Position numbers and translations under genes: made by a program. From Vigna angularis (taxonomy: Eukaryota > Streptophyta > Magnoliopsida > Fabales > Fabaceae): a DNA stretch of 64,000 nucleotides. This document shows, in pieces, positions 1 to 33,891 of the stretch. Each line of letters begins with the position of its first letter. The first letter of the stretch is position 1. The notes beneath the pieces are model-generated. The model was given only the letters and a program-made list of their open reading frames with translations, was not told the origin of the DNA and did not search any database. Location of the stretch: the NCBI RefSeq assembly GCF_016808095.1, contig NC_068971.1, positions 23,548,501 through 23,612,500 of the forward strand, given 5' to 3'.

Positions 1-529
1 AGCTTCACTTGTTAATTGTTGGATGGAAGCTTGTGCAAGCCGTGAGTTGGATGTGCAGATTTTCCAATTTAATGTTTGCTAAATCATGTAGCAAGCAAAG
101 AAAGCCGTGAGGTGCCCCTTCTCCATCAGCTTTTCGGTTTTCAATTCATAAGGCAAAAGAAAGATTTTCCAATGCTAAATGGTGGATCCCATCTGATTCC
201 AATTGCCTTGTTTTGTCCTTTGCAAAATTCTTCAATTGAAAGCAAGGAGAAATACATTGCCGTGCCCTTTCATTGGTGGTGGATCCCACTTTCTTCAATT
301 AAAATGATGATGGTTGATTTCCTTATGCTTCTACGTGAATGTGCTAGCAAGTGGCCATGACCTTCTTTGCTTTCAACTTGTTTTGCTGAATTTTTCAATG
401 GGACATTGCTATTGCAATTTATATTTGGAACGTGATTGTTTTTCAAGTGGTGGCCCCATGTGTTTGTCCAACTTGCAAACTTTTGACTTGAAAGAAATGA
501 GTTGCAACATGGTCTTCCATTCACTACAA

Positions 530-740
530 AAAAGTAGGGCATTACCGAAGGCCATAAGCCCTCGGAAATTGCCAAAAGCCGTCGATAATGGATGTTTACC
601 GAAGGCCTATCGACGGCCAAAAATCCTTCGGTAAATCGCTTGTCGCTAACCATTACCGAGGGCTTCTGCCCTTCGGTAATTACCGAGGGCTTCTGCGATA
701 ATTACCGAGGGCCAAAAGCCTTCGGTAATTACCAAATAGC
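530..740. repeat. Subterminal repeat array (ACCGAAGGC family), left end of CACTA
   Basis: ACCGAAGGC/GCCTTCGGT and variants such as CCGAGGGC recur about ten times in alternating orientation. In CACTA elements such arrays bind the TNPA-type protein. The same array occurs at 5950-6100, 23975-24185 and 37565-37715. Confidence 0.85.
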
Positions 741-779
741 TGAAAAAAAAAAGTATAATGGAGGGTACTCAGTCAAGGG

Positions 780-2440
780 TCTGGTAATCGTTTACACCAA
801 CCCTGTAAACGATTACCCAAGAGAAAATTGGAATTTGTACAGAAAGTCCAACACAGGTACTCAGTCAGGTGAACAGGGGTCACCATTGAAAAAAAAGTGA
901 CTTTTAGGCACTTTTGCACTTGTCTTAGGCTGTTCCTTGTGTTTCAGTGGTGGGAGAGGGAGGTTAGTGATGTGATTATGTCCCAATGATGGAGGAAAGT
1001 GATGTTTTGGCACCCCATGATGGAGGAAAGAAACAATGTTTATGAGATGAGCAACTTGAGTGAGTTAACATGCTGTCAACTTTGACCTTTGCTGGGTATT
1101 TTACTGATAACTTTTCCCACCGACCTCCAAATGATGTGATTCTTTTTTTATTAGAAACTAGACTCAAACATCTTTCCAATGACTACTATTTTGTAATTTT
1201 TGGACATTTGAGTTGGTACAGTTTATTGTTTCAAGTTAGCGTTTCATATATTTTTGCCAACTCTGAACTTTGCTTGTTCTTTTGCTCATAACTTTCTCCA
1301 CCGAACTCCAAATGAGTTGATTCTTGTTTTGTTGGAATCTATACTCAAAGACCTTTCCAATTATGCCTTAGAAATCAAATTTATACCTTCTTTGACACTG
1401 TAATCGATTACAAGGACACTGTAAACGATTACCCGAGAGAAAATTGGATTTTGTACAGAAAGTCCAACACAGGTACTCAGTCAGGTGAACAGGGGTCACC
1501 ATTGTTAAAAGAAGTGAGTTTTAAGCACTTTTGATCTTGTCTTAGGCTGGTCCTGGTGTTTTAGTGGAGGAAAGTGATGTTTTGGCACCCCATGATGGAG
1601 GAAAGAAACAATGTTTATGAGATGAGCAACTTGGGTGAGATAACATGTTGTCAACTTTGACCTTTGCTGGCTAGGTAATTCTTTGCTTTTGACAAGTTTC
1701 CTAGCTTCATTCCACTAGTTTAGACATGTTAGGATGTTCACATACCTTAGAATGAGTCTACATTAGGTGAAATGACAATTTGTCACCTTATAAGTACACT
1801 TTTTAGGTACTAAATACTCAAACTTTGAGTTTTAGGTGAAGAGAAGCCACTTGCAGCGTGAATGAAGTGAAGATAATTCCACCAGCAGCTGCAGCTACCT
1901 ACATGGTCTAGTTTGCAGCAGTCTAGCCACGTAGAGAAGCTTCACTCACGGCCTTTGAAGGAGGGGAAACATGTCCAGCAGCTGTAGCTACCATCACATC
2001 CAGTTGGGAAGAAGAAGGAAGCTCACGGTTTCTTTGAGAAGCATGGCAGCAGCTCACGTTCAAAAGAAAGGCTTCTATGGAGTGGAAGAGCTAAGAGAGA
2101 AAAGGAGATGAGTTCAGGGCTGAATGGAGTTGGACGTGTGAAAGAAGAGGAATAGGGAAGGAAAGTCCAGCCACCACTCATGGTTGGCAAAGCTCCAGCT
2201 GCAACTCATTACTTTCAAAGTGAAGAATTTTGCAAGTTGGACAACACAAGGGCCACCACTTAAAATCTGGTGCAGTGCAGATTTTTGATGTGACTGGTTT
2301 AATGTGTGGTATGGTGTTGTGACGTTTTGGTGAGGCTTCCAAGGTCCAAAATTCTTGCTCCAAGGGGGTAGCATACTAGGTAATGGAAGGGTTGCTGAAT
2401 TGGACAAAGAAGTAGCTCTAAAAGTAGCAATTTGGCTTGA
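780..2440. repeat. Segments inside the CACTA that resemble the Athila LTR
   Basis: 785-900 and 1400-1560 resemble 6758-6890 of the LTR on the same strand; shared features are the pair GTAATCGTTTACA/TGTAAACGATTAC and the phrase CAGAAAGTCCAACACAGG. About 2190-2280 resembles the reverse complement of 440-515 of the LTR (TGCAAGTTGGACAA, then GGGCCACCACTT). The match is diverged, so this is older LTR material carried by the CACTA, not a duplication made at insertion. Confidence 0.65.
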
Positions 2441-5400
2441 TTTTCAGTAGCATTTCACTAACTTGGAACCACTTTTTTAGGTCCAAACAACTTAAACTTT
2501 GAGTTTTACCTAATTCTTTGCTTTTGACTAATTTCCTAGGTTCATTTCACTACTTTAGACTTTTAGTTGTACCTAATTCTTTGCTTTTAAATAGTTTCCT
2601 AGGTTTATTTGACCATTTTAAACTTGTGTGCACTGTTCATTTGGTCAAATTTTAGCATACATGCAAAATCACTTCCAATACCGTTAATTTTGCTTAAATT
2701 TGGATGTGAATTAGTGATTTTCGAGTGTGCTATGATTCCTTGTTGTTTCAATGTATAAACACCTTTAAATTGATGATATAAAGTTGCTGGAATCATCACT
2801 TAAGCTTTACAAACACTGCCAATCATTTTTGGGTTTGAAAGCACACTTTTGAAGTCCATTTTCTGGTGCAGTTTTCATTCTTAGTGCTGTTTGATTTTGT
2901 ATACTTTGTATTTTCCAATTGTGCCCTCATATCTATCTTTCTTTTATGTTTTAAAACTTGTGTATATAGTTGCTTTACTGTTTTGGTTAATGCTTTAATA
3001 TTATGACCACTTTTAGTGTATTCTACTAACTAGTTCTAGGTTCTAGGGTGTCATATTTTGAGTTCTAAGTTGTTTTTGTAGTATGACTTTCTCATTACCA
3101 TTGATTTACCATCCTAAACTTGTTAGGACAGTTTGTTTCAAGTTTCTTAGGCTAGTTTAGTGCAGTCATCATGATTTCACCATTCTAGTGCATTTATAGT
3201 AGCCCTTAAGAGGTTTCACTGCATATATATGAGTGGCAGTATATGTGAGGCTCAAATGATTTGTCAAACAAGTTTACATCATCAAATTGGATGTGTGCAA
3301 ACACTTAAATAGTCAAGAAACACACTGCAACAGTATTTCACTAGTGCACTTCCAAATTTAGGCAAAATGGATGGTCTAGTAAGAAATTTTGCATATGAAC
3401 TGACAAATGACCAAATGAACAGTGTGCACAAGTTTTAAATGGTAAAATAAACTTGCATACACTTTGAAAATGCACTTGCAGAGACAGATTCGCAAAATCA
3501 CAGCAACTGAAGCCAAAAATGCAGCAAAATTTGGTGGTTTACAGAGGAAATCTGCATATAGGCTTCTTAATGACCATTTCAACAGTAGAAACAGATTTCA
3601 ATTCACAAAATATACTTTCACAAACATTGAAACATCACAGAAACACACAGTAGCAACAAATGACAGTGGTAGTTGCTTAAGAATGCATAAAAATAAAGCA
3701 AAACTGCAGCAGAATTGGAAATTCATGTGAATCAATGCTGGATGGATCAAGAAACATGTAAGAAAAGTCCTAAGCAACCAGATCTAGCTTGAACATGTTA
3801 GCTAGGAGAATTAAAATGGCCTAAAACATGGCAAGGATTCAAGCACGGTGCAAAAACTTATGGAGAATACTGTGACAGTTTTGGAAACCAGATTTTGATC
3901 AACTCAACTACTGTTTTTGAAATTTAGTGGTGAATACAGATTTCTAGCACTTGAAACATGTATAAATTCATCAAATAAACTTGTCTCAAGCATTAGAATC
4001 AATAAATCTGAACAAAAACAGTGTGCACATGTTCATGGGTCCAGCAACATCATTATTTTACACATTTCTACTTTGTTTACTTTTCAAAGATGAATAGAGA
4101 GGTGAAGTGAATGTGCAGCTACGTTTTTTATTCTTTGGCAACAACAAAAGCTTTCAAAAGTTGTATTCTTATGTGAAAACCTCTTAGGTTTACGTGAATG
4201 AAGAAAGTGGTAGGGTCCTCCTTGTTTTTCTTGCCAAAATGCTTTGTTATCTTTACCTTTCTTTTATAAAATACCGTGTTGTTGTTGTGTCCAGTGGCAG
4301 CCCCTCCCTTTAATGTCTTTGCACCTTGTTTTGTCTTTTCATTGAAGGAATTAAGTGAATGGATGGATAGGAGAGCAAAGTTTTCAGATTTCTAAACCCC
4401 TTTTCACGTGAAGAAGACTTGGTCCTTTATTGCATTTTACTTTTATTGATTGAGACTTATTGACTAAGATGGAGTAGTAGATAGCTTTTATTTTTATTTG
4501 TTTTCAATTCCCTTTGCAATTGAGTGGATCTTGTGTATAGAAGATAAAGTTCACGTCTGGAAGGTAGAGAACCAAATTGCTTGACATTTTCTTCTTTGCT
4601 TGCCAAATAGCTCACGGCCATCAGCAAAGCAATTGAAGATTGGGTGATAGATTTTCCAACCACTGACAGTGGTTGAAATCATATTTTAAACTCAGTTTTG
4701 GTGGTGTGATGGAGTGATTTTACCACATTTTTTTGGCCATAATAAAGTCATATTTCGAATGCTAGAAGTTTCTATGTTGTGTGACACTTTCAGCAAGTCT
4801 AAAATGTTGTTTAAAAGTTGCTAGCAGAGTTCAATTACTGATATAATGGGGTGAGTGCATAATAGTATACTAAACCATGATTTTGGAGTCAAAATTGGGA
4901 AGTGACAAGGTGTTCTTCAGTAACAGTATGGATTTGACCGAATTCATAGTTATAACAACTTTAAAATCACTAAATTAAGTTGTTGGAGTGATTAGTTTTG
5001 ACCTACAACCACTGCTATGACATTTGCTGTCTTGAACCACCAAATTTTGACAACTCTGGCCTAAATCTATAAGTCGGGGTCGTTGGGGGAAATAACTAGC
5101 TTTACTAAGTTTAAAGTTATTGCTCATCAGTCTGGAAGTAGGATAATTATATTATTCTGAAGGTTGAGATGTGCACAAACAGAGGTGGAAGATTTGCACA
5201 AACAGATGTGCTTAATCTGATTCACTTATAATTGCTGAATCAATTGCTTAAAGTAGATGGTATAATGGTTGAAGGGGATGTCAAATTAAAGAGGAAAATT
5301 CAGGTCATGGCACATACTGAGATGTATTTTACAGAGCAATTGTAGTTCTAATGTTAGTGAAATATTTTGTGTCAACTTAAGAAGAGTTCAAAACTATGTT

Positions 5401-7150
5401 CAAACTCTGGATTAGCTCAACATTAACAATTCAGGAGAATTTAATCCTTCTACATCAATACATCCTTCTTAGCTTTCATAGTTCATCAATGCAAATAACA
5501 ACTTACCTCGACGGTAGCCCCTTCGATAGCCTCTGAAGCAGTAGTGGAAGACCTTGTCACCCAGCGACACTGCCCTGGTTACGCCGCCTCGTCCATGCCG
5601 CGTCGTCCGATATCCTCCGTCGACAATGGTAGCCTTCAACTCAGCCACCCACCACCTTCCTCAGCTCAGAACACTGCAAAACGCTACAAGGAAAAAGGTT
5701 ACACCATTGACACGTAATCCAAAACAGTAACAGGAACACAAAATGAGATGGGAGAATGGGACACTTCACCTCTAAGTTCGGAGTGGAGAAGAACCGTACC
5801 AAGATTGTGCTTAGGGTGGGAAGCAGTCTGCACAAGCCACCCACTGAGTTCGTCGATGAAGTTAGGGCAGAGAATGTGAAGATTGGAGGGAAAACGGAGT
5901 TTTCGCGAAATGCTTCCCAAATATCTGACTTTCTAATTTGATGAACGTTACCCACTTACCGACGGTCGTTTGCCTTCGATAATCACTCAGGCCCTCGGTA
6001 AAGTGATGTAACACAAGCCCTCGGAAAAGCCCTCGGAAAAGCCTTCGGTAAATTACATTTACCGAAGGCCAAAAAGCCTTCGGTAATTAACCGTCGGTAT
6101 TAATTGATTTTCTTGTAGTGATTTGATGTTTGCTGAATACTTCATGAAAATGAATTGTGCATGGGCCATGCTCTTCCAATTGAGAAGAAAAAACGTGAAC
6201 TTGCTATGTGTGTCCCTCTTCATCATTTTACTTCAAATGTGCTAAACTTTGCCCAAATGGCCGTGAGCTATACTTAATGGATATGTGAAATATGCCTTCC
6301 TCCCTTATGTGGCAGCTGAATGGGGGCCTTGTGGTTTACTTTCATCATACCAATCCAATAGAATTCAGCATTACATTTTGGAGGTCTTGGTGTGAGTTTT
6401 AGCATGTTTTCCAATGTTACTTCTTGAAATGAGATATAAAATGTGCCAATATGAGTGTTGAATCCTTGAGTGTTGGGAGGTCTTAGCACCGTCTAATGAT
6501 CAATTCCAGCCACCACAAGTATCAAACAACAAGCAAACAATGCAAACAGATTAGAAGTCACTCAAATAATAATCACTAGACTGACATAGGAGAGTAAAAT
6601 AAATACTGGGAACAGCACAAAACGAATTTGAACAAAGTAAAAACTATACGTAAAAATAGACATCCAGACGAAACTATGAAAAAAAATTGCATGCAAAACG
6701 GATAAGAATTGAACTCAAACGAAGACACACAAGTTGACACAACATTCACGCAGCACTGGTAATCGTTTACAGCACCCCTGTAAACGATTACCCAAGAGGA
6801 ATTGCAAATTTGTACAGAAAGTCCAACACAGGTACTCAGTCAAGTGAACACAGGTCACCATTGGCAAAAAAACTGACTTTTAGGCACTTCTGCCCCTGTA
6901 AACGATTACCCGAGAGAAATTGGGAATTTGTACAGAAAGTCTAAATGTCCAAAAATATTTTCCAAAATTTTTCATGCACTCAATAATGTAAATAATTCGT
7001 TTCAGATAATTCAAATTAGTTAAAATAAGAATTTCTGATCAGATTAGGCTCAATTCAGTAAAATGGGAAAATACTGGACAATTAAGCACAATTCCCTGAT
7101 TAATTCTAGCACAATAAACTAAATGAAGTGAATAAAATAATGATTCATCA

Positions 7151-7168
7151 AAATAGACCACACTTAGT
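7151..7168 (-). other. Probable polypurine-tract region next to the 3' LTR
   Basis: Read on the minus strand the bases directly upstream of the 3' LTR are TAAGTGTGGTCTATTT, the place a plus-strand priming tract must occupy. It is not a pure purine run. The core AAGTGTGGTC recurs on the minus strand at 7914-7924, 8515-8525 and 10817-10827. Confidence 0.5.
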
Positions 7169-8504
7169 CTCTTGCACTCCTGGGCAAAATTAAGACGCAA
7201 ATCAGGGAATAATTCAAAGGACTTTCAGGAATGGTGACATAAAACGCAGCATACAGAAAAATAAAATAAATACTAAAGAGAAAAATAAACAGAATTTACA
7301 AAGTTCTCAAGAAGTCTGGACAGAGAAAAAGAAGTAGACAATATCCAACACATAGTCAAGAAAAGCACATACTTACAGAAATCATCCAAGCAATTCAATA
7401 CATAGCAAAATGATTAATCAGCTTAAGAGGTGATTTAAAAATAACAAAACCTCACAGATGCACTCACAGTGTTTCTCTCAAGTGTCTAGGGTAAATAATA
7501 ATATCAGCTCGATGTACTCAAGAAAACAAACACAAGTAGACTTGGCAAGCTTCTAATTATCAATACTTAAATCATATGCATGTTCAGATCAAAAGGTCTT
7601 TTATAGGTTGTAATGGGGCCAAGGATAGGGGAGGATAAATTTGGATAAGTAGCTATAGCTCAGAAGAAATAGAGGTGCACTAGGAAAAAATGTAAACACA
7701 CTGAAATCTCACTCAAACCTCTAATTCAATCCTCTTCTCGACTCCATTATTCACAAAAATTATTTTTCAATTTTTTTTTTCTTTTTCTCATCATTTTTTT
7801 TATCCTGTCTTCTTTCTCTCTCTTTTTTTTTTTTTATCACATAACAGGATATAAATTATCATTTCAAAACATGATGAGGAACCAACTAGCCAATTCATCA
7901 GAATTCCCAAGGAGACCACACTTATTCACAAAATACTTCTATAGCTCCAGACTTTCCTAAGGTTAAGGTAATCATTTGTTTTTCACTTAGGATCAGTGTA
8001 TGAGCTTCAACACAAAGAAATATATACAGTATAGGCTCAAAGGGGTTATCAAAGGATAATAACAAGGTAGGCTTATTTGGCTAAAGAGGCTCAAGAACAA
8101 AAATGCCTTTATCACTTCCAAAAATGCATATAAATCAAGTATATCAAAAAGAATCAAGCCAAGGCATATGTGCAAGCAATCAAGAGACATATCACACACA
8201 AGAAAGAAAATTAAGTGGCTCAAATCTCACATAGGGTATTCGTCACAATCAAATCAACCTCTCAAACGTATAATCATCTTTCCAAGCAAAGAAAAAGCAG
8301 GGATTTTAAACCATAAGTATTAATGAAGTGGAGGAAAAATCTACAACTTTAGACATTATCCAGAAATCAAGAGAAAAATGTAAAATTTATTGCACTCAAG
8401 ACACACTAAAACAACTTAAAACAGAAAAAATTTAACACTCAAAAACAAAAAATTTAACACACAAAAATACATACTAAAAGAAACTAACAGAAAAATCAGA
8501 ATTT
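7169..8504. other. Internal spacer of the Athila-like element, no gene seen
   Basis: AT-rich non-coding sequence with oligo-T tracts at 7769-7835. It contains one GACCACACTTA motif at 7914. No protein-coding similarity was recognised on either strand. Confidence 0.6.
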
Positions 8505-8640
8505 CTCCCCAGTAGACCACACTTAAATCACACAATGTCCTCAGTGTGTCACAATCATCAGATTATCAATTTCAAAGCAGTCAAATAATATAGACAAGTG
8601 CAATAAAAAGTAGGAAAAAAAATGGGAAGAAATTTTCAGA
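8505..8640. repeat. Copy 1 of a diverged direct repeat bracketing the WOX-type gene
   Basis: The order GACCACACTTAAA, TGTCCT, ATCATCA, ACAAGTGCA at 8515-8610 is repeated at 10817-10900. The two copies lie on either side of the homeobox gene and in the same orientation. Confidence 0.6.
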
Positions 8641-8641
8641 A

Positions 8642-8715
8642 ACATCCATCAGTAGATGTTATCATTGACATCCATCAGCAGATGTCTAAATCACCTAGCA
8701 CCCATCAGTAGATGC
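8642..8715 (+). promoter_or_regulatory. Triple CATCAGTAGATG-type repeat upstream of the WOX-type promoter
   Basis: ACATCCATCAGTAGATGT, ACATCCATCAGCAGATGT and GCACCCATCAGTAGATGC start at 8642, 8668 and 8698. Each has complementary arms (ACATC/GATGT or GCA/TGC type). They lie 140-210 bp upstream of the TATA box. A regulatory role is inferred from position and repetition only. Confidence 0.45.
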
Positions 8716-8851
8716 TAATAATAATTTTTTTTTAATTTTTTTTTTAATTTTTTTTAATTTTTTTTTTTTTTGAAAAAGGAGATGACCGGCACTGTGACAA
8801 TAGTCTCGGTGGCAACGACCGGAACTGTTGCTACAGTGGAAACAATTTGCC

Positions 8852-8859
8852 TATAAATA
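8852..8859 (+). promoter_or_regulatory. TATA box of the WOX-type gene
   Basis: CTATAAATAGG is a strong plant TATA box. About 30 bases downstream begins a CT-rich leader (about 8897-8942), typical of plant 5' UTRs, so transcription probably starts near 8885. It points away from the retrotransposon's own direction. Confidence 0.7.
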
Positions 8860-8884
8860 GGCCAATCTCAGCGTCGAGCAACAT

Positions 8885-9652
8885 TTTCTGACCTAGTCTC
8901 TCTCTCTAATCCTCCCTTCTCTCTCTTCTCCTCTCTTCTCCGAGCATCTGGAGTCTGCACGGAGCCTCTGCCACCGCGCCGTTTGGAGAGTCTGAGACCC
9001 GCGAGGAGCTCCTCTTCCAACCTTCCGCTTCCGGGTAAGTCCTCAGAACTTTGGATCTCCCTTTCTTTCTGTCCTTCATCCTCCCTCTTCTCTTTTATCA
9101 GCTTTTATTTCTCTTTTTCATTTCCTGCTTTCCTGCTTTCTTGCTTTCCAGTCTTCCATTTCATTTTTTTTTTATTTTCCATTTCCTGCTTTCCTTTATT
9201 TTATTTTCTTTTCTGCATTACCTGTCCTCTTCCCCTCTCCGATCCATCTTCTTTCTTCCCCTTCAATTTTTTTTTCAGCCTTTCCAGTTTTCTGATTATT
9301 ATGCACACTAAAAACAACTAAAAATCAAACTAAAATCAAAAATAATGGACAAAACACTGGACCTAGATTCGTTAGGACCCTTTGCGAGGACCAGGACCTA
9401 AACATGGACAAAACAGATGGACCGAAAACTAGAAAATGGACAAACCTGAGACAAGACACTGAAACAAAGACTGACAGGACAAAATAAATTTAACAGGAAA
9501 CAAAAACAAATAAGGAAAACACAGAACTAATCTAATTTTTTTATGCTTCTTGTTTTTCCTTTTATTTTTATTTTTTTTATGTTTTGTTTTTTTCTTTTTT
9601 TTTTATGTTTTTGTTCTTTTTATTTTTATATATATTTTTTTATTTAGAAAAT
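8885..9652 (+). other. 5' UTR exon and leader intron of the WOX-type gene
   Basis: A non-coding CT-rich exon runs to 9034, where GGGTAAGT gives a consensus donor. The T-rich stretch to 9647 ends TTTATTTAG, a good acceptor, five bases before the first ATG. The predicted intron is 9035-9647 (613 bp). An open frame at 8983-9321 starts at TTG, not ATG, and runs across the donor, so I treat it as chance. Confidence 0.6.
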
Positions 9653-10192
9653 ATGATGAGTGAGATGGAAATCGAGAGATACACCAGTCAGCGGTGGTGT
9701 CCTACCGAAGATCAGGTCAAGATGATGACCAACATCTTCAACTACGGGGTTACCCATCCAAGCAGAGCGCAAGTCGTCGAGATCACGTCTCGACTAAGGA
9801 CCTACGGAGATGCCAGCGAATACAACGTGCACTGTTGGTTCAACAATCACGGCAATCGGGTCAGGCGCTGGCAAGCGGAGATAGACCCCACTGGCACTCA
9901 GTTTTCACAACTGCCGCTGTACATGTACGGTAAGACCCTGATCACACCTCAATTTTTATTGATTTTTTTTTTCCAATTATTAACACGATTTTTTTTTTTT
10001 TTGTTGAAAGAATATGGCTGGGTGGTAATGAGGGCACCAAGGCTGCTGGACCTGTTTCCCGTCCCGATCATCATCGACGACGACAGAGATGAGCGACAAA
10101 TCCCTCCGCCTAGGCCTCCTACTTTCCGAACCAGAGCTCCCTCGACGGAGCTTACCCTAAGATCACCACCGAGCAACTACTTTCGTTTTTAA
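9653..10192 (+). CDS. WUSCHEL-related homeobox (WOX) type protein, antisense in the retrotransposon
   Basis: A small homeodomain transcription factor of the plant WUS/WOX family, expected to act in the nucleus. Exon 1 is 9653-9929; intron 9930-10010 (81 bp, GTAAG...GAAAG, T-rich); exon 2 is 10011-10192. The spliced product is 152 residues. The homeodomain spans about residues 11-73: RWCPT at its start, helix-turn spacing as in WOX proteins, and recognition helix NVHCWFNNH. The canonical WFQN is WFNN, and the next residues GNR replace KAR, so the invariant Asn is kept but a basic contact is lost. NH after WF-N fits the WUS clade rather than the WOX9 or WOX13 types. LLDLFPV at 104-110 matches the WUS-box pattern and ELTLRS near 139-144 resembles an EAR motif. 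The intron length is a multiple of three and contains no in-frame stop. The second ATG at 9656 is an alternative start. The exons are clearly less AT-rich than the flanks. It lies opposite to gag and has its own TATA box, so it looks like a captured gene. Function and expression are unproven. Confidence 0.85.
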   Translation: MMSEMEIERYTSQRWCPTEDQVKMMTNIFNYGVTHPSRAQVVEITSRLRTYGDASEYNVHCWFNNHGNRVRRWQAEIDPTGTQFSQLPLYMYGKTLITPQFLLIFFFQLLTRFFFFLLKEYGWVVMRAPRLLDLFPVPIIIDDDRDERQIPPPRPPTFRTRAPSTELTLRSPPSNYFRF

Positions 10193-10799
10193 TGCTTTAT
10201 GTTTTTTTTTTTTTATATGTTTTTGCTGGCCGAGTGTGGCCAGAATAAGGGTTGTAATATGAACACTTAATTTGTTTTTATATGTTTTTAATGTTTTTAT
10301 GTTTTTTTTTTACTATGGTGTGTAATATTAACGATCAGAAATGATCGACCGTGAACAACTTTATTTTATTTTTTTGTATTTTTGTTAACAGCAGTGTAAG
10401 ACATAATATTATCGGCGTATTTGGTTATTTTCAAATAAATGCACTCAGATTAAATCTGCTCGAACCTCACCTCTCTGCCTATTACTGCCATTTTGCTCTT
10501 ACGATTATTTATTTATTTAATTTTTTTTTTATTATTATTATTTTTTTTTAAACAAAAACTAAATAAAAAAAAACACAAATTAACAAAAAAAAAAGACATA
10601 AAACCGAACACAAAATATCAAAGCACACAAAACACAAATGTCAAAAATAGCAGAAAAAACATATATTTACAGAACATAAATTAACAAAACAACAGATCTG
10701 GAACATAACATACAAATTTTTTTTATTTATTTTTTTTTAAAGATAATAATTCGAAAACAAAAAAGAAAAGGAAAAACAAACTTTAAAAGAAAAAATAAA
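10193..10799 (+). other. 3' flank of the WOX-type gene, AT-rich
   Basis: Contains poly-T tracts and AATAAA-like signals (for example AAATAAATG near 10432), compatible with 3' UTR and polyadenylation. No further coding recognised. Confidence 0.4.
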
Positions 10800-10932
10800 A
10801 TGCAGAATCTTCCCGAGACCACACTTAAACTACACTGTCCTAGATGTTTTCTAAGCATAAGATCATCAATTAAAACAATCAACAGATAAAGGACAAGTGC
10901 ACTAAAAATATGAAAACGGGGAAGAAAGAAAA
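10800..10932. repeat. Copy 2 of the diverged direct repeat bracketing the WOX-type gene
   Basis: Shares GACCACACTTAAA, TGTCCTAGATG, ATCATCAATT and ACAAGTGCACTAAAAA in order with 8515-8610. In the retrotransposon's sense it follows the gag stop closely, so it may be the original post-gag spacer. Confidence 0.6.
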
Positions 10933-10947
10933 AGAAAACTTCCCTGG

Positions 10948-12327
10948 TCAGGGTGGCAGTTGCCAATTTTGGATTTGTAGGGAGATGTTCTTCTCTTCAG
11001 GATCCAGCACAAAATTGTTGAGGACGAACTGCTTCATCCTCCAAATCTGATCAAGCAGGGAAATATCCTCCACCGCCGGATCTAAACAACAATTGTTGTT
11101 TCTGAGCGGATTCAGTACGTGCCTTTTGATCTTCGAACTGCTGTATGTAGTGGCACCTTTGTCTTCCAGCGTGGGTGCATGCTGATCAAATTCATTTGTA
11201 CCTTCTGCAATAGGGTTAGTGCAATGTGGTTCCAAAGAAAATTCATGCAGGGGTATAACACCCAAATTATCATACTGAACCGTAGATACCTCCTCAAAAC
11301 ATGAATCAATTTCAAAATTATATGCAATATCAATAACAGATTCAAATTCATGTTCAGAGCGAGAATTAAAAACATGCTCAGCAACAATATGATTATCAGC
11401 ATACCTATCATCATCACAATCAACAGAATAATCAAATTGTGGTATGCTTACCTCCTCTTCCTTGAAGATTGCTAGAGTGTGGGAAGATGAAGGTGGTCTA
11501 CCTGGTTCAGAACTACTGCTTATTCTTGCCTGGTCCTCAAAATCTTCAGCATTCTCCTCAGGTGCAAGAATGGTCATCTGCCCGATCTGATCACTCAGAT
11601 TCTGCATGGCAGCTTGAGTTTCCTGTTGGATCTTCATGCTCTCTTGCTTGAACTTTAGATTCTGCATGGTTATCTGCTCCATTAACTCCTTCAATGTGGG
11701 TTCAGAAGTAGAAGGCTGAGGAGCTAATTGAGTAGGAGCATCATACTGCTGAATCTCATATTGTTGGACTTGTGGAGGCATAAAGGTGCTCTGGAATGGT
11801 GGTTCTTGGTATTGATGTGGGGCATCGTACCATCCCAAGTTAGGGTCATTCCATCCAGGATCGTTGTTGTATCCATCTTGCACAGGGGAAAATTTGCTCA
11901 GAAACTGAAGCTCAAGATATCCCCAATCGGTAACGGATCCTAGAGGAAGAGAATCTTGCCAATCCTTAGCTGCTCCGTGTAATGAGTGTGGAAATGCCCT
12001 CAAGAAAATGTGATCAAGAGGGACATGTGGAGGCTTCATTGATGAGCACATGTTGTGGAACTCCTCCAAATGTCTATGTGGGCATTCTCCGGCAAAACCA
12101 TGAAACTTAGGGAGCAGATATATCAGTCCAGTGCTAAGAACACAATGAATATCATCCTTAGGTGGAACCGGCTCCCAAAGGGAGCTCTCAGAAAATTGAG
12201 GATAATCATTATAATTTTCATCATAAAATTCAGCAGAATTAAAATCAGAGCAATATGCAGAATAAGAATCATAATCAGAGACATTGGCAGAATAAGTAGT
12301 ATTCACATAGCCAGAATAGATAGACAT
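10948..12327 (-). CDS. gag: Gag polyprotein of the Athila-like element, internally shortened
   Basis: An intact 459-residue reading frame. Residues 72-147 form the retrotransposon gag core (KFHGFAGECPHRHLEEFH, then AFPHSLHGAAKDW, then QFLSKF), which closely matches Athila-type gag. In the family this core is followed by a long helical region. Here it jumps straight to a Gly/Trp-rich segment (GYNNDPGWNDPNLGWYD, about 152-168), so roughly a hundred residues seem to be missing in frame. Residues 211-252 are a Gln/Met-rich likely coiled coil, followed by an acidic tail of about 200 residues of no known domain. No CCHC knuckle or protease is present. Gag should assemble the particle in the cytoplasm. 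The start ATG is the first in frame, about 500 bp downstream of the primer site. Confidence 0.85.
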   Translation of the reverse strand: MSIYSGYVNTTYSANVSDYDSYSAYCSDFNSAEFYDENYNDYPQFSESSLWEPVPPKDDIHCVLSTGLIYLLPKFHGFAGECPHRHLEEFHNMCSSMKPPHVPLDHIFLRAFPHSLHGAAKDWQDSLPLGSVTDWGYLELQFLSKFSPVQDGYNNDPGWNDPNLGWYDAPHQYQEPPFQSTFMPPQVQQYEIQQYDAPTQLAPQPSTSEPTLKELMEQITMQNLKFKQESMKIQQETQAAMQNLSDQIGQMTILAPEENAEDFEDQARISSSSEPGRPPSSSHTLAIFKEEEVSIPQFDYSVDCDDDRYADNHIVAEHVFNSRSEHEFESVIDIAYNFEIDSCFEEVSTVQYDNLGVIPLHEFSLEPHCTNPIAEGTNEFDQHAPTLEDKGATTYSSSKIKRHVLNPLRNNNCCLDPAVEDISLLDQIWRMKQFVLNNFVLDPEEKNISLQIQNWQLPP

Positions 12328-12698
12328 GAATAAAAATAAAACAAATAAAAACTAAATACTAAAAATTATGAAACAGATAAATCACAACACATTTATACAT
12401 GTTACACGCACACAAAAGACAGAACATAATTTTTTAATATTTTTTTTTAATTTAATTTTTTTTTTAAATTAACAAACAAAATAGATACGACACATATACA
12501 GAAAATAGAACATCACATCACAAGATAAGATAAAACACAACACAATTAAACATGCTTCAGACACAAACAAAATAGAACAATTTTTTTTTTCAACAGCTAG
12601 ATACAAAATAAAATACAATAAAAATATAAAAGACAAAACATATATTTCAACCACGTAATAAAAATAGTAAAAATCTAAAACAAGAACCTGGACTGAAG

Positions 12699-12830: not shown

Positions 12831-12848
12831 TCCCCGGCAACGGCGCCA
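12831..12848 (-). other. Primer binding site, tRNA-Asp type
   Basis: The minus strand reads TGGCGCCGTTGCCGGGGA, complementary over 18 bases to the 3' end of plant tRNA-Asp. It lies five bases from the LTR edge at 12854. This fixes the element as minus-strand. Confidence 0.9.
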
Positions 12849-12853
12849 AAATT

Positions 12854-15553
12854 TGGTATGACTGTCGCGGTCATACAAATTTGATGTGCACGAAAATATG
12901 CAGTATAACTAGGAATTGACTCCTAGGTCGTCTCTCAAGGACCAATTTTGGAGGTTCAGTCTCAGATTTATCACGAAGTGGGGGGGGTTGTGATTTTTGA
13001 TGCAAAAAAAATTAAATCAAACTGAATTTAAAAATACTGAAATAAATTTTAAACACTGTAAAAACTGAACGGTAAAAATGGAAAACGTCTGAAAATAAAA
13101 CGAACGGTCAAACGTAATGACCGAATTTTAAAGAAAGTACAGAAAACAATTAAATTGGAAAGCGTTAAATTTAGTGAATGGTAAAAATAAAATTTAACAT
13201 TTTTAACATAACGTAAATCAACAGTGCAGTGAAAATAAAATTTGAGAAACAATTAAATAAAGTTTTGAAACCGTAAATTGAAACTGACAGAATAGAAATT
13301 GCAGTTAACATCAATTAAATTCCAATACATTGAAACTAGAAAACTAGAAAATTGAAACACATAAGACCCAAACCTCCCCAACAGGGGAGGAGGAAAAATA
13401 AACACTCAGAATCAACACGTCCGTGGTTGCTCTTCCTAAAACTACTCCTCAAATCTAACTTGTTGCTCCTTGCATTTTATAGCCACTCCTCACATACTCC
13501 CGTGAGCCCTCCTTGTTTCTAGCAAGGTTTTTTTTTTCTTTTGTCCAATTGCCAGCCTGAATTCCTTCCACTCCAATGTGCCAAAGAATTAGGATAGGGG
13601 CCCTCCATTTCTTGTCTTCACGCAGCAACCCTTCCACCCGTGGGCTTCCTTCTCCATTCCTCTCCATTCCATGTTTCTCTTCTTTCACCCGTGAACACCT
13701 TCTGGAAGTGGCAGCAACAACTCCCTCTTGGTGGCTTCTTCTTTGCTTTGCTTCTTCCAATTTGCGTGTGCTAGCAACAAGAAGGTGAAGAAGTCTTCTT
13801 CTTCAACTAGACTAAGACCTTGGAGCATCTCTTCTACTGGACCAGCTACTGAATGTGCTTCCATTCTAAGATTATTGTTTCCTCTTCAAACTCAGTTGCT
13901 AGACTTTGACGTAAAACATCTCCTTTGCCTTGCTTGTATGCTCCAAGTAGGAAAGCACTACTTCATTCTTCCTTCTTTACGTGAACTGCCCCCTTCATTC
14001 CAGCAAGCTTCACTTGTTAATTGTTGGATGGAAGCTTGTGCAAGCCGTGAGTTGGATGTGCAGATTTTCCAATTTAATGTTTGCTAAATCATGTAGCAAG
14101 CAAAGAAAGCCGTGAGGTGCCCCTTCTCCATCAGCTTTTCGGTTTTCAATTCATAAGGCAAAAGAAAGATTTTCCAATGCTAAATGGTGGATCCCATCTG
14201 ATTCCAATTGCCTTGTTTTGTCCTTTGCAAAATTCTTCAATTGAAAGCAAGGAGAAATACATTGCCGTGCCCTTTCATTGGTGGTGGATCCCACTTTCTT
14301 CAATTAAAATGATGATGGTTGATTTCCTTATGCTTCTACGTGAATGTGCTAGCAAGTGGCCATGACCTTCTTTGCTTTCAACTTGTTTTGCTGAATTTTT
14401 CAATGGGACATTGCTATTGCAATTTATATTTGGAACGTGATTGTTTTTCAAGTGGTGGCCCCATGTGTTTGTCCAACTTGCAAACTTTTGACTTGAAAGA
14501 AATGAGTTGCAACATGGTCTTCCATTTGATGTTTGCTGAATACTTCATGAAAATGAATTGTGCATGGGCCATGCTCTTCCAATTGAGAAGAAAAAACGTG
14601 AACTTGCTATGTGTGTCCCTCTTCATCATTTTACTTCAAATGTGCTAAACTTTGCCCAAATGGCCGTGAGCTATACTTAATGGATATGTGAAATATGCCT
14701 TCCTCCCTTATGTGGCAGCTGAATGGGGGCCTTGTGGTTTACTTTCATCATACCAATCCAATAGAATTCAGCATTACATTTTGGAGGTCTTGGTGTGAGT
14801 TTTAGCATGTTTTCCAATGTTACTTCTTGAAATGAGATATAAAATGTGCCAATATGAGTGTTGAATCCTTGAGTGTTGGGAGGTCTTAGCACCGTCTAAT
14901 GATCAATTCCAGCCACCACAAGTATCAAACAACAAGCAAACAATGCAAACAGATTAGAAGTCACTCAAATAATAATCACTGGACTGACATAGGAGAGTAA
15001 AATAAATACTGGGAACAGCACAAAACGAATTTGAACAAAGTAAAAACTATACGTAAAAATAGACATCCAGACGAAACTATGAAAAAAAATTGCATGCAAA
15101 ACGGATAAGAATTGAACTCAAACGAAGACACACAAGTTGACACAACATTCACGCAGCACTGGTAATCGTTTACAGCACCCCTGTAAACGATTACCCGAGA
15201 GGAATTGCAAATTTGTACAGAAAGTCCAACACAGGTACTCAGTCAGGTGAACACAGGTCACCATTGGCAAAAAAACTGACTTTTAGGCACTTCTGCCCCT
15301 GTAAACGATTACCCGAGAGAAATTGTGAATTTGTACAGAAAGTCTAAATGTCCAAAAATATTTTCCAAAATTTTTCATGCACTCAATAATGTAAATAATT
15401 CGTTTCAGATAATTCAAATTAGTTAAAATAAGAATTTCTGATCGGATTAGGCTCAATTCAGTAAAATGGGAAAATACTGGACAATTAAGCACAATTCCCT
15501 GATTAATTCTAGCACAATAAACTAAATGAAGTGAATAAAATAATGATTCATCA
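12854..15553 (-). repeat. 5' LTR of the Athila-like element (2700 bp)
   Basis: Runs from TGGTATGACTG to TGATTCATCA, with TG...CA termini on either strand. It contains pairs of GTAATCGTTTACAG and CTGTAAACGATTAC around 15161-15195. Its 14006-15553 part is uninterrupted and shows the pre-insertion target of the CACTA in the other LTR. Confidence 0.92.
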
Positions 15554-16430
15554 TGCACCATTTGGTCTAGCTTGCAAAAGAACAAAAGCACATTGTGTTT
15601 TTCTAGTGGTTTTGGTTTTTTCTTTTTGGGATCCATTCTAGTGTCTTTCTTTAGGTAATTCCTTTTGTTGTGCTAACCTTTCTTTCTTACCCTTTAATTG
15701 CTTGATTGTCTTCTAAACATTCATGGTTTTGTCAAAGTAAAACTCCATTTGAAGAGCCTTTGCTCATTTTAGACCTTTTCTTGCTTTTTTCTTGGACTCC
15801 TTTTGGCTTTAGTGGTGTTAACTTGTGGTGTAGGTCTTTGGATGGTAAAAGAACGTGAGGATCATGGGGATAATAGCCCAAAAAAGTGAGCAACATCCAA
15901 AGGTGAAGGATGCCTTGAAGGGAAACTTAAAGTCTTAGACTAAAACACAAAACAAGAGAGTATACACTTGGTGAGAAAGAGAGATTTGTGTGTATTTTCT
16001 TTGAATTGTAAAATTGTAATTGTTTCCCTTTTTGTAATTGTATTTTTGACTTGTTAGGGGTTTGTCCTAACAAGAACATTGGACATTTATTATTTAAGCG
16101 AAATTTGTAGTTGGTGGGTAAGAGGGAACCAAAGTTCCTTCTAATTCATCATTAGGCTGCATAGTTTAGATTTATTATTTTCCTTACTTTTGGTATTTTA
16201 GTGTGTCTTTACTTTAATTTCAATTTTTTTTTTCCTTTTGAGAAGTTTGGTGTAAGAGTACCTAAGATAAGCTTTGGCTAGGAAAGGCTTGGTTCATAAG
16301 CAATCCTTTGTGATTCACCTCCCTTTCCTAAAAGTGAACTTGGGCATCTTTTACTTCCTTAAGTGTCTTAGGGAACTTCTCTTGAAATTTGAAGTAATTT
16401 ATTTGTTGCATTGCATATTTTTGAAAAGTT
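15554..16430 (+). other. 5' leader of the Gypsy element
   Basis: Non-coding sequence before gag. Nothing else recognised. Confidence 0.5.
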
Positions 16431-16436
16431 TGAGAA

Positions 16437-18548
16437 TGTCTAAGACCACATCCTTTGAAATTGGTAGTGACTTTAGTGAAGAGGTCAAGCCTACTTTGAA
16501 AAACTTGGCCAAAGAACTAAAGTCACTAAAAATTTGGCAAAAGCAAGAAGCTATTTTGAAAGAAAAAGAAAAGATGGAAAGAGAAGAATATCTTGCTAAA
16601 TTGGATGAGGAACTTAGAATTCTCAATGAAAAACAAGAGAAAACTCAAGAAGAGATAAGAAAAACCAAGAGCAAAACCAAGAGTAGGAGTAAGAGTCACA
16701 CAAGAAGGAGTTCTAGGACTCCAACTCAACCCACACACTATGAGGTAGATAGTAGGCTTGCCCATCAATACTATCAACCTCCTCCACTTAGAATTCAAAG
16801 AGAGCACCCTCCAAGAGAGGTTAGAGTAGACCTCCCCCATTTCCATGGAAAAGAAAATGTCGAGGCATACTTAGATTGGGGAAATGAAAGTTGAACAACT
16901 CTTTGAGTGTCATGAAGTGAGTGAGGAGAGAAAGGTCACATTGGCCACTTTGAGTTTCCAAGGGAATGTCATGTATTGGTGGACTTCCCTTGTGAGAGAA
17001 AGAAGGCTTTCTAATTTTCCCCAAGTCACCTATTGGAATGACATAAAGAGTGCCATGAGAAGAAGGCACATTCCCCATATTATCATAGGGAGTTAATGGA
17101 CAAACTCCAAAGGCTCCAACAAAGAGACATGACCATAAATAGCTATAGGAAAAAGATGGAGTTCTACATAATGAGGGCGGGAATTAGAGAGGAAGAAGAG
17201 ACCACCATCTCTAGGTTTCTAAGTGGTCTTAATCTTGAGATTAGGGATAAAGTGGAATTGTTGCCCTACCAAGATTTAAATGACTTGGTACAAATTTGCA
17301 TTAAAGTAGCACAACAACTCTTAATAAAAAGTTTGAAAGCTTTCCACTCTAACTCTAGTGTTAAGAAAGACTACAAGAGGGAGGGTAAGCAAGTGGTAGA
17401 AGAAGAACCCTCTAGGAATCTAGGGAGGGAGAAGAGAGTAGAGAAAGAAAAAGAGAAAGCCAAGGGTGGGAACATCATCTCACACTCACACTAGTGAAAT
17501 TAAGTGTTTCAAGTGTCTTGGTAGAGGTCACATTGCATTACAATGCCCCACCAAAAAGACCATGATCTTAAGGGGTATTGATGTGTATAGTAGCCAAGAT
17601 GAGGAAAGTGAGAGTGAGAGTGAAAGAAGTGGTGCAAAGAAACAACAAGAAAGTGCAAGTGAAGATGTTCATCCTTGTGAGGGAGAGCTTCTTATGATAA
17701 GAAGGGTTCTCCATAATCAACCTAGTTCACAAGAGCACACACAAAAGGATAACATCTTCCACACTAGATGTAAAATCTTAGACAAAATATGTTCCCTTGT
17801 TGTGGATAGTGGCTAATGTTCAAATTGTTGTAGCACTAGGTTGGTTAACAAGCTTGGATTAACTACTTTTCCTCATCCTCAATCTTATAAACTTCAATGA
17901 ATCAATGAGGACAAGGAATTGAAAGTTAATCAACAAGTGATGGTCAAGCTATCCATAGGGAATTATGAAGATAGTGTGTTATGTGATATAGTACCTATGG
18001 ATGCTTGCCACATTTTATTGGGAAGGCCTTGGCTTTTTGATAGAGAATCTTTACATAATGGCCACACCAATGAAATAAACATCACTCACAATAAAAAGAA
18101 TTTTGTACTTCATCCTCTCACACCTTCTCAAGTGGAAGATGATCAAGCACAAATGACAAAGAAAATAGAAAAACAAAGAGAAAAAGAAGGTAAAAAGAAA
18201 ATAGAAGACACATTTTGTTCTAAGTGTCAAAGCATGATACACAAGTCTCATGAATGCCCCAACAAGAAAATTATGATGTTAAGGGCCAAAAGCTTGTGTA
18301 AAAGTGTAAAGGTCTCCTTTCCATCTTCCTCTATAAGCATGGCCATAAAAGACCTAAAGCATCATTGTGTGGGAAATAAAATTTTCAAGAAAAATGCTCC
18401 TACTTTCCAAGACCTTAATCATTCATTTGATTTAAGGTGTATCCTTATTGGGAGCTATATCCTTCACATACTCACTATTATAACACTTGTTCTAACTTAT
18501 GTTATACAATGGGTATTTGACCCTGGTGGAAAAATAAGGAAGAATTGA
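16437..18548 (+). pseudogene. gag-pr: Ty3/Gypsy gag-protease, frameshifted
   Basis: The coding begins at ATG 16437 (MSKTTSFEIGSD) with a Glu/Lys coiled coil. It continues as the gag core (DLPHFHGKENVEAYLDW, then a WW dipeptide, then MDKLQRLQQ and SGLNLEIRD). Next are a CCHC zinc knuckle (CFKCLGRGHIALQC, near 17509-17550) and an aspartic protease with the DSG site at about 17806-17814. The protease continues to DACHILLGRPWLFDR. The chain is broken by single-base shifts near 16878, 17085 and 17470 and by stops at 17815 and 17898. A second Cys-rich segment (CSKCQSMIHKSHEC) follows near 18220. It cannot give a full product but clearly once encoded gag and protease. Confidence 0.85.
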
Positions 18549-26689: not shown

Positions 26690-28400
26690 TCTTTTGACAT
26701 GGTGTAATTTGTTTTTGGTTTAAAGAATCGGTCGTTACCTTGCGCCTTCAACTCTAAGACTTTTCGTCCACAATACAAAGGTAAATCTCTCAAAGAAATT
26801 TCTTTTCTATGGGCATTACATCGAGGTTATGTCTTAACAAGTTATCTTTCCAATAGGGAAGATCCCAAAATATGCTTCTTTTAGTCCAATTATGTCATTC
26901 TTCAAACCCTTCTATCATATTCTGACCACATTCAGTGACTTTTGGCAAGTTATTCACTCTTCTCCAAACGTGTGATCCAGTCAACTTCGGCGGGGGCATA
27001 TCCGTTTCAACTTACCCTTTTCAAAATGCCTTTTCGTTTCTTCTAAAGGGGTGATCAATGGGCAAGAACCGTCAATGACAGTCAAACCAACTACTTTTTC
27101 GACCATAACTAAATTGGAATGACTTTATATGTTCCATGCAATGTGGATAAGCTAATCGACCATGCATGCTCCAATCAGATAACATGCCATACGCTGGAAA
27201 GTCATTAATAGTCCACATCAAAGCTGCCCTCATAAGGAAATTTTGCTTCCTTGAAACATCATATGTCCAAACACCATTCCAGAGCTTCTTCAAATCATCA
27301 ATTAAAGGCTTCAAATAAACATTAATCGCTGATTTGGGATTAGATGGACCTGGTATTATACACGCTAAAAACATGAAAGACTTTGTCATACACATCTCAG
27401 GTGGTAGATTGTATTGGGTAACTATCACCGGCCAACAGGAATATGGTGATGCAGACGCCTAAATGTACAGCGTAAACGCATTAGATCATAGACCAAGTCT
27501 GACGTTACGCGGTTCACTAGCAAATGATGGATGTTTACGATTGAAGTGCTTCCAAGCTTCACCATCAGAAGGATGACGCAAAAATTCTTCAGTTTTGTTA
27601 CCATCATGCCATGTCATGTGTTCTGATGTTTGTATTGAAGTAAACACTTTTTGTAATCTTGGAATTATAGGCAAGTAGAACATGGACTTTAAGGGTATTG
27701 GTTTTTTTTCCCTTTGTCCAGCATGCATCATATGATATCGAGGTGAACCACAAAACTTGCATTCAACCAACAATGCATCATTTTTGCCACTGTCATTGTC
27801 ATAGAATAACATACATCCATTAACACAACAATCAATCTTTTTGGCTTCCAATCCCAGCTTTGACACACATCTTTTGGCTTGATAATAATTTTTCGACATA
27901 GAATTGTTTGGTGGTGTCAAATCTAACATCAATTTTGTATAGAAGTCCGCTGCTTGATTGGGAATGTTCCAATTAGATTTACAAGCCATGAGTCTAATAC
28001 ACACTGACAATTTTGACTCAGATGAACCTTCAAATACAAGTAGATTTACCTCTGTCAGTAAATTGTAAAACCTCTGAGTGGTTTCATTTGGAGACTCTTC
28101 ATCATGACTATCGTTTGCTTCTTGTTCAGCATGTCGACGAAGAGCATTGTCGACCATCTCTTGCATATAGGCAAATTGATCTATCTCAGATGTATGTACA
28201 ATAGTATTCGAACTTGATGCAAGCCGCTTTTCAGCTGTAGTGGAGGTTGAAGGAATTTGTTCACCATGAAATGTCCAAACCGTGTAATTAGCCATGAACC
28301 CTCTTTGGTATAGGTGAACTATGACGACTTCATCTTTCAAAATCCTTGGACATTCGCACTTGATGCAAGGGCATCGAATCCCTCCATCAAGAGCATAATA
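26690..28400 (-). pseudogene. CACTA TNP2-type transposase (Transposase_21 family), decayed and truncated
   Basis: TNP2 is the catalytic transposase of CACTA elements. From 28370 leftward: HLYQRGFMANYTVWTFHG, a long open frame (28340-27486) with a Cys-containing region (CCVNGCMLFYDND, then CKFCGSPRYH), EAWKHFNRKHPSFASEPRNV, then YSCWPVIV and QYNLPPEMC. Next come IIPGPSNPKS, LIDDLKKLWNGVWTYD, RAALMWTINDFPAYGMLS, and near 26870 a segment ending RHNLDVMPIEK. A last piece, FKPKTNYTMSKDE, runs directly into the GAA repeat. Stops are seen at about 27508 and 27481 and in the 27072-26780 part. The C-terminal third is missing where the microsatellite begins. Confidence 0.9.
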
Positions 28401-28969
28401 TTGATATTGCTAAGCCGTCTCGACAAACTCTTCAACTCCGATGACAAAAGCTTCCTTCAAACCTCTCCTTCCGCTATAACAACAGTTGTACATCCACCCA
28501 CGGTGGTTGGGAAAATAGGCCATGTTCTGTGACAAGCCAAACAAAGAAAAACTTAACCAAAACAACAACACTCCATGTGACATAAGTAATAGACCTATTA
28601 CTACGTAAGTCGAACATGGAAGGCAATTTGAACACTACTTTCATAAGCATACAATAAGTATATGCAAAGAGAAGTTCTCAGTATTGAAATGACTTAGACA
28701 TCCTAAGGGGTTGTGTAGTAATAGTTGGGAGAGACAACTTATTACTACTGAAGTTCTCTTTTATAGCGTACTTCCAAATATTTTGTAGGTTCTAAGTGTT
28801 TATATATACTAGTTTTACCCTTCTCATTGCATTGAGAATGTGTGTAGTACCATAGGATTTTAAATGACTACTTAACTTAATCAAGTTGTAGCCTAATAAA
28901 TGAAATACAATATACATGAACATACAATATTAACCTACATTTGGGTCTAGCTGCAAATTTTCACATGTT

Positions 28970-29640
28970 AGGATGTTCACATTAGTTAAAATTAGTGTAC
29001 ATTAGGTCTGGTTGAAAATTCTCACCTTTTAAGTACACTTTTTTAGGTTCCAACTACTCAAATTTTGAGTTGTACCTAATTCTTTGCTTTTGAATAGTTT
29101 CCAAGGTTCATTTCACTACTTTAGACATGTTAGGATGTTCACATTAGTTAAAACTAACCTACATTGGGTCTAGTTTCAAATTTTCACCCTTTAAGCACAC
29201 TTTTTAGGTTCTAAATACTCAAACTTTGAGTTTGAGGTAATTCTTTGCTTTGGACAAGTTTCCTAGCTTCATTCCACTAGTTTAGACATGTGAGGCTGTT
29301 CACATTAGTTAAAATTAGTGTACATTAGGTATGTTGCAAATTCTCACCTTTTAAGTACACTTTTTTAGGTTCCAACTACTAAAATTTTGAGTTGTACCTA
29401 ATTCTTTTCTTTTGAATAGTTTCCTAGGTTCATTTCACTACTTTAGACATGTTAGGATGTTCACATTAGTTAAAATTATTCTACATTAGGTCTATTTGCA
29501 ATTTTTCACCTTTTACGCACACTTTTTAGGTTCTAAATACTCAAAGTTTGAGTTTGAGGTACTTGTTTGTTTTTGACAACTTTCCTAGCTTCATTCCACT
29601 AGTTTAGACATGTTAGAATGTTCACCCTTTAAGCACACTA
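28970..29640. repeat. Tandem repeat of about 160 bp, four units, in the CACTA leader
   Basis: CATGTTAGGATGTTCACATT and close variants start near 28972, 29126, 29287, 29447 and 29608. Each unit also holds TTTTAGGTTC and a GAGTTGTACCTAATTC-like phrase. Related single units occur at 1690-1830 and 2440-2620 in the CACTA derivative. Confidence 0.85.
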
Positions 29641-33846: not shown

Positions 33847-33877
33847 TTTCGAAAAATTTGAAAAACTATCAAAGCAA

Positions 33878-33889
33878 GCTCTGATACCA
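33878..33889 (-). other. Primer binding site, tRNA-Met type
   Basis: The minus strand reads TGGTATCAGAGC, the usual Copia primer site, two bases from the 5' LTR edge. Confidence 0.93.
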
Positions 33890-33891
33890 AT

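Follow-up and report, generated by a model that had tools for sequence, protein, structure and literature searches.

Extra open reading frames (ORFs) in antisense orientation between pol and the 3′ LTR are carried by several plant Ty3/gypsy retrotransposons, among them Grande (gene23), RIRE2, and Retand (TRP28), and as far as the accessible parts of PMC11963269 and PMC7264820 describe them, they are present in most copies of their families and are suspected of DNA binding. For Retand elements they are described as a defining feature, and 97% of clusters contain TRP28 (PMC11963269, accessible text); no clear similarity to other proteins is reported for them, but SMC and transposase-28 domains are noted, and Grande has a promoter of its own for the antisense ORF (PMC7264820, accessible text). 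A nuclear regulator encoded antisense at the 3′ end of a retroelement is known in HBZ of HTLV-1, a bZIP protein. HBZ is also mentioned in the accessible text of PMC11963269.

Capture of host-type domains is documented in the accessible text of PMC9289625, which describes an m6A demethylase ORF of 2-ODD/AlkB-like type that Ty3/gypsy elements of orchids have retained and diversified through many rounds, and mentions Gypsy elements with a LONELY GUY (YgdH/LOGL4) ORF. In its screen of 121 genomes, 15 unusual domains turned up, each of them in elements of the Gypsy type; the word "homeobox" is absent from its main text, and gag-only families could have escaped the screen because it started from reverse transcriptase hits.

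The window analyzed here, a stretch of 64,000 nucleotides from Vigna angularis, holds a young gag-only LTR retrotransposon with 2.7-kb LTRs, and between its gag and its 3′ LTR lies a WUSCHEL-type homeobox gene in antisense orientation. Place, orientation, presence in most copies, and suspected DNA binding are shared with the Ty3/gypsy antisense ORFs, and the putative promoter of the gene recalls that of Grande. Those ORFs have no clear protein similarity or carry TRP28, SMC, or a few other domains, whereas here the domain is a WOX-type homeobox, the introns are conserved, and the element is gag-only. The orchid ORF is likewise a host-type domain captured as an extra ORF, but encodes an enzyme, and LONELY GUY is likewise a plant developmental gene in a retrotransposon, reportedly in an Athila context (Steinbauerova et al. 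2011), but is not a transcription factor. HBZ shares the antisense position at the 3′ end of a retroelement, with a bZIP in place of a homeodomain, and the function proposed below draws on it by analogy. Antisense extra ORFs are thus already a known kind; for a WOX or homeobox ORF in an LTR retrotransposon, no published report was found among the titles and abstract openings listed, mostly from outside the subscription literature. The locus is of interest because selection has maintained a transcription factor of host type within a mobile element. Its cargo is a member of a DNA-binding family whose structure is known and for which standard assays exist, so that the role of such antisense ORFs becomes directly testable here.

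Structure of the element and its cassette

The element reads leftward in the order 5′ LTR, primer binding site (PBS), gag, gene cassette, and 3′ LTR, and reaches past the left edge of the window. The right copy, the 5′ LTR, measures 2,700 bp (12854-15553, minus strand). The left copy, the 3′ LTR, starts 1,153 bases before the window, runs to position 521, and continues from 6121 to 7150. Its first visible part (1-521, minus) is 100% identical to the right LTR within the window and 99.6% identical with the stretch left of the window included, and its second part (6121-7150, minus) is 99.5% identical. A CACTA-like DNA transposon (522-6120) with the ends CACTACAA...TTGTAGTG and ATT on both sides interrupts this LTR. 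TG...CA LTR ends, paired LTRs, a PBS, and a 5-bp target site duplication (TGCAC at 15554-15558, the other copy left of the window) are all present, making this a complete LTR retrotransposon insertion. In an alignment of 2,700 sites, the LTR pair shows 11 differences (nine transitions, two transversions) as well as a 1-base gap, a K2P divergence of 0.0041. At rates of 1.3e-8 and 7e-9 substitutions per site and year this gives ages of 0.16 and 0.29 My, respectively, and the element is as young as originally predicted.

The CACTA-like insert also holds two copies (784-924, 1400-1540) of a 141-bp sequence found within the LTRs as well (6759-6899, 15162-15302; 79-83% similarity to the copy at 1400 taken as reference), so that the two elements share sequence. 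Tandem repeats of 161 bp at 29011-29625 resemble parts of the same insert (1635-2623), and another CACTA/En-Spm element is marked by Transposase_21 (tnp2) and Transpos_assoc matches at 27072-28409 (minus). A neighboring element right of the target site has a Retrotrans_gag match (17042-17491, plus), and a Copia-type gag frame with a zinc knuckle lies at 32611-33963 (minus).

The PBS TGGCGCCGTTGCCGGGGA (12831-12848, minus) is five bases from the LTR end and is presumably complementary to tRNA-Asp, a primer type tied to the Athila lineage. In the accessible text of PMC6317226, tRNA-Asp is listed among the primers of non-chromoviruses. The gag ORF (10948-12351, minus) comprises 467 aa from stop to stop, with a Retrotrans_gag match (E 0.0053) below the Pfam cut-off, and no pol frame was found in the window element. 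A genome-wide search gave at least 135 gag matches from 91 scored of 3,279 candidates; the longest gag frame among the matches listed has at most 517 codons, and hence none of these copies has gag fused to pol. The label Athila-like given in the original prediction draws on the PBS and a weak gag match, in an element that has no pol.

The cassette lies between gag and the 3′ LTR on the plus strand, antisense to gag, and consists of a leader intron and two coding exons behind a putative promoter. At its upstream end are three 16-bp copies of CATCCATCAGYAGATG (at 8643, 8669, and 8699; 8643-8714, plus; up to two substitutions allowed), which occur nowhere else in the window. At least one copy of CATCCATCAGYAGATG is found in 44 of the 47 gene copies with at least 1,050 bp upstream, and none in 12 gene-less elements. 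The candidate promoter core with TATAAATA at 8852 and the non-coding leader exon (8783-9034, plus) show mostly high agreement across 41 aligned copies; only 26 of 48 copies have an exact TATA word at a distance of 700-1,000 bp upstream of the ATG (manual count). The leader intron (9035-9647, plus) is of the GT...AG type, with its donor after 9034 and its acceptor before 9648, and 43 of 48 copies have a GGTAAGT-type leader donor upstream. Coding exon 1 (9648-9929, plus) begins translation at the ATG at 9653 and encodes the homeodomain; a phase 1 coding intron follows (9930-10010, plus; GT after 9929, AG before 10011); and coding exon 2 (10011-10192, plus) encodes the WUS-box-like LLDLFP and the EAR-like LTLRS before the stop at 10192. 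The joined coding frame is open over 152 aa. The TATA box, leader intron, ATG, coding intron, homeodomain, and the two short motifs, and the antisense placement of an intron-bearing gene opposite gag, had been predicted and were recovered, with the splice junctions at the positions given there.

The cassette is bounded by a direct repeat, the left copy at 8481-8647 aligning with the right copy at 10786-10943 (123 identical bases; alignment score 131, compared with at most 56 in 200 shuffles). At 7155, 7913, 8514, and 10816 stand exact copies of AGACCACACTTA, every one within the internal 3′ region of the element; 0.35 would be expected in the window with one mismatch allowed, and the copy at 7155 is a few bases from the LTR edge. 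These copies may be polypurine-tract-like joints of a modular region, and it is possible that insertion or template switching at such sequences gave rise to the 3′ part of the element.

Encoded protein and its relatives

Exon 1 encodes a WUS-type homeodomain. The Pfam Homeodomain match has an E-value of 3.2e-6 (27.3 bits, cut-off 22.9), and phmmer against the PDB returns, at E up to 0.1, only WUSCHEL (7.3e-11) and STENOFOLIA (2.6e-10). Modeling exon 1 with AlphaFold yields three helices, with block pLDDT of 93-97 over residues 21-70; when this model was searched with Foldseek, the top eleven PDB rows all belonged to homeodomains of STENOFOLIA and WUS (E ≤0.001 for three), and the model superposes on chains A and E of the WUS homeodomain 6ryd at 1.1 and 1.0 Å over 65 columns. 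The predicted gene type is thus upheld.

The protein nevertheless departs from WUS in several places. Its recognition helix reads WFNNHGNR, compared with WFQNHKAR in WUS-clade host rows; W, F, the second N, H, and R are kept, the neighboring residues are changed, and the helix is unlike those of all 14 host WOX rows compared. The canonical WUS box is T-L-x-L-F-P, and the canonical EAR motif is LxLxL. The stretches that the original prediction called WUS-box-like and EAR-like read LLDLFP and LTLRS; the canonical T is changed to L in the first, and the second is only part of LxLxL. P0070-type relatives have TLDLFP; the EAR-like form is LSLRP or LTLRS/LTLRP in most window-type relatives among the matches listed, and LSLRL in most P0052- and P0070-type relatives.

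A homeodomain tree sets 26 element-type rows apart from 14 host WOX rows with support 98, although it has 64 columns only and the program warns of long branches meeting. The element-type rows form a window type, a P0052 type (support 79), and a P0070 type, and they do not group inside the host WOX tree. On these comparisons the element gene is classed as WOX-derived, and membership of a host WOX clade is not assigned to it. Mean homeodomain identity between element groups and host rows is 29-48%, values that single out no donor gene. Three host genes, WUS (L083) and two WOX5-like genes (L089, L092), are interrupted between homeodomain and WUS box by an intron read as phase 1; the element gene has its intron in the same place and phase, with the same homeodomain type and part order, but differs from these genes in identity, in the changed recognition helix, and in its many copies in repeats. 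The labels WUS, WOX5-like, and WOX9/11 were assigned by us. P0070 has SVPDRVTLDLFPI, to be set against SEPDRVIETLQLFPI of the host WOX5-like type. P0052-type homeodomains are nearest to rows labeled WOX9/11, whereas motifs and intron point to the WUS clade. The intron and the P0070-type motifs suggest a single capture event, in which DNA of a WUS-clade gene was taken up with its intron.

The 12 P0052-type loci (L011-L022) have flanks in common among themselves, which identifies them as repeats, and these flanks gave no DNA match to the window element. Their intron is at the same place wherever donor and acceptor are readable, and in the one copy that was extended, the gene lies between the two copies of a 330-bp direct repeat (94.6%) separated by 6.5 kb. 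Judged by flanks, relatives of the gene stand in at least two unrelated repeat backgrounds in Vigna, and the second carrier is likely an LTR element too.

Copies with and without the gene

The peptide CWFNNHGNR, searched with degenerate codons, has 442 exact occurrences (217 + 225) in the 448-Mb genome assembly, and a reversed control has none in the same genome. A protein search returned 59 clusters, the largest with 62 members and every one under the name Vigna angularis, and alignment-based searches (79 and 83 proteins) added Vigna radiata, umbellata, and mungo. One Rehmannia protein among the matches looks like an ordinary WOX. Absence from other taxa is weak evidence, because the protein searches need shared short words, and a scan of IMG/VR found no relatives of the gene. 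An ORF unique to the window copy is ruled out by the protein matches, the gag-flank counts, and the genomic motifs.

The 3′ flanks of the best 49 of the 91 scored gag copies were examined, and 37 carry the gene, antisense in every one (all 29 copies at ranks 1-29 and 8 of the 20 at ranks 30-49). The ORF is therefore an antisense ORF 3′ of gag in most family copies, and the predicted spread by the element, along with the further copies that the prediction had proposed to look for, was found. Two lower-ranked gag flanks, picked for an already listed gene and left outside this count, carry the gene as well. Matching the 91 gag places with at least 143 gene places, exon-2 rows left out, gave at least 17 gag-gene pairs within 4 kb, and 17 of 17 are antisense at 0.9-1.5 kb.

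The remaining 12 copies show no gene by tblastn at 1e-4 and have an empty site: each can be aligned with the window to the left and to the right of the cassette, in parts of 7151-8619 and from about 10770 onwards. Two of them (L063, L065) have short T-rich blastn matches inside the cassette stretch, and L071, the only gene-less copy with its junction displayed, has a single copy of the cassette-bounding repeat sequence. A flank tree of 38 copies, the 12 gene-less ones included, needs three gains or losses of the cassette, and gives no preference to a single gain over repeated losses. Since 12 of 49 gag copies are without the gene, it is dispensable for spread.

Selection, splicing, and proposed function

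Conservation was measured in 48 copies: the 37 gag-ranked ones (window included), the two lower-ranked ones, and nine fetched for a listed gene. The coding intron was detected by GGTA near the expected codon and an in-frame AG near exon 2, and where two AGs were possible, as in six copies, the one agreeing with the other copies was taken. With these rules, a donor GT at the same codon and an in-frame AG are present in all 48 copies; the donors read GTAA in 47, the acceptors end in GAAAG in 44, and intron lengths range over 79-110 with modulo 3 classes of 20/14/14 (12/14/11 in the 37 gag-ranked copies only). That the splice sites persist while the intron varies freely in length is indirect evidence that the coding intron is spliced. 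Read-through was rejected as a general explanation, as only 13 of 48 introns are readable in frame; the window's own 81-base intron is readable (open frame 9536-10192). After splicing, 30 of the 37 gag-ranked copies are fully open, and a stop within exon 1 occurs in 4 of 48.

Both exons are under purifying selection. Omega (Nei-Gojobori) is 0.27, 0.30, and 0.21 in three dS bins of exon 1 and 0.30, 0.21, 0.21, and 0.20 in four dS bins of exon 2, the latter from 42 of the 48 copies after six with an early or late stop were dropped. Codon-bootstrap upper limits are all ≤0.62 in both exons, intervals that are only indicative because sequence pairs share history. These values lie well below 1, which answers the dN/dS test proposed with the original prediction. 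Read in the wrong frame +1, exon 1 gives 1.57 and 1.29, and in frame +2 it gives 0.62 and 0.74 (bootstrap 0.38-1.00 and 0.47-1.17); the +2 control is not cleanly neutral, yet the true frame is clearly lower. Exon-1 variability is 0.126 at third codon positions, compared with 0.044 at first and 0.056 at second positions, an excess that indicates selection on the protein. A chance ORF is ruled out by homology and this codon-position pattern.

A captured fragment amplified with the element and lacking function would agree with the 12 gene-less copies among 49, but this already disfavored reading is very improbable with omega of 0.2-0.3 in both exons, 30 of 37 frames open, and splice sites kept while introns drift. 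Hardly more credible is an effect of the antisense transcript itself, through dsRNA or transcriptional interference on gag; such effects are discussed in the accessible text of PMC7264820, but the exon-1 codon positions show that the protein is what selection acts on. The gene is very probably a selected protein-coding accessory gene of the element.

For 41 copies aligned without reference to the motif, agreement with the window reaches 0.76-0.89 in the site array, drops to 0.28-0.47 across the T-rich stretch that follows up to the promoter, and is mostly 0.63-0.91 over promoter and leader exon before it declines to 0.54 and 0.38 within the leader intron. A site array more conserved than promoter and leader exon was ruled out, the two being about equal; the first measure of 16-bp site conservation was biased by its 25 copies having been chosen by the motif itself. 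The conserved array is the best candidate for a target of the protein.

The reading that we consider probable overall is that of a captured WOX-type gene serving as an accessory gene of gag-only LTR retrotransposons, its product possibly a self-regulating repressor. A host WOX-type homeobox gene would have been captured, probably once, as genomic or unspliced DNA and become an accessory gene of these elements in Vigna. The cassette forms a self-contained antisense unit of site array, putative promoter, leader exon, and two coding exons, which would be transcribed and spliced to yield a nuclear DNA-binding protein. WUS recruits a TOPLESS-type corepressor through its WUS box and EAR motif. The element protein, probably a DNA-binding repressor, would be a short version in which remnants of both motifs beside the homeodomain recruit the same type of corepressor. 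Acting on the control regions of the element itself, in the manner of HBZ, it would tune element transcription, and it is through element replication that selection acts on the protein. This self-regulation is the least certain part and is advanced tentatively, as somewhat doubtful. Seven words that we take to be WUS-type binding sites show no enrichment in the LTR, the internal region, or the promoter; the changed neighbors in the recognition helix mean that targets probably differ from those of WUS, which fits the lack of WUS sites. The reading is further weakened by the incomplete EAR motif of this copy, the lost T of the WUS box, a TATA word in only about half of the copies, and the 12 of 49 gag copies that do without the gene.

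Next in rank after self-regulation comes action on the host, in which the protein as a WUS-like repressor or a competitor of host WOX proteins would act on meristem genes and enlarge or mark the stem-cell or germline pool where the element transposes. The WUS-type fold, the WUS-box and EAR remnants held by selection on exon 2, and the TLDLFP and LSLRL kept in relatives speak for it, but none of the 14 host WOX rows compared has this recognition helix, and hundreds of active stem-cell factor copies would presumably be harmful unless tightly controlled; we regard it as unlikely. Of the stem-cell-type factor in the original prediction, the WUS-type homeobox is supported; action as such a factor is doubtful, given the changed helix, the incomplete EAR motif, and the WUS words that are not enriched. 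Third is another DNA-related accessory role, such as anti-silencing, nuclear import, or integration targeting, with the homeodomain only for reaching DNA. Such roles have been guessed at for other antisense ORFs. Position and orientation are those of known antisense ORFs (PMC11963269 and PMC7264820, accessible parts), but nothing in the sequence points to such a role, and its chances are poor as well. Equally speculative, and improbable in its full form, is an extension of the self-regulating repressor: that the lineage took over a plant stem-cell regulator, a WUS-derived repressor expressed from its own antisense promoter and perhaps self-steering through a CATCCATCAGYAGATG operator, to time or place transposition in meristem and germline cells, with relatives in at least two unrelated Vigna repeat families.

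On the side of the host, the 442 exact recognition-helix motifs compare with at least 14 ordinary WOX homeodomains, counted among 17 loci taken as host candidates. Seven public Vigna proteins of the wider family (P0047, P0060, P0062, P0063, P0067, P0071, and P0081) are named WUSCHEL-related homeobox, and with such names on relatives of the element gene, WOX counts and surveys in Vigna may be inflated or distorted.
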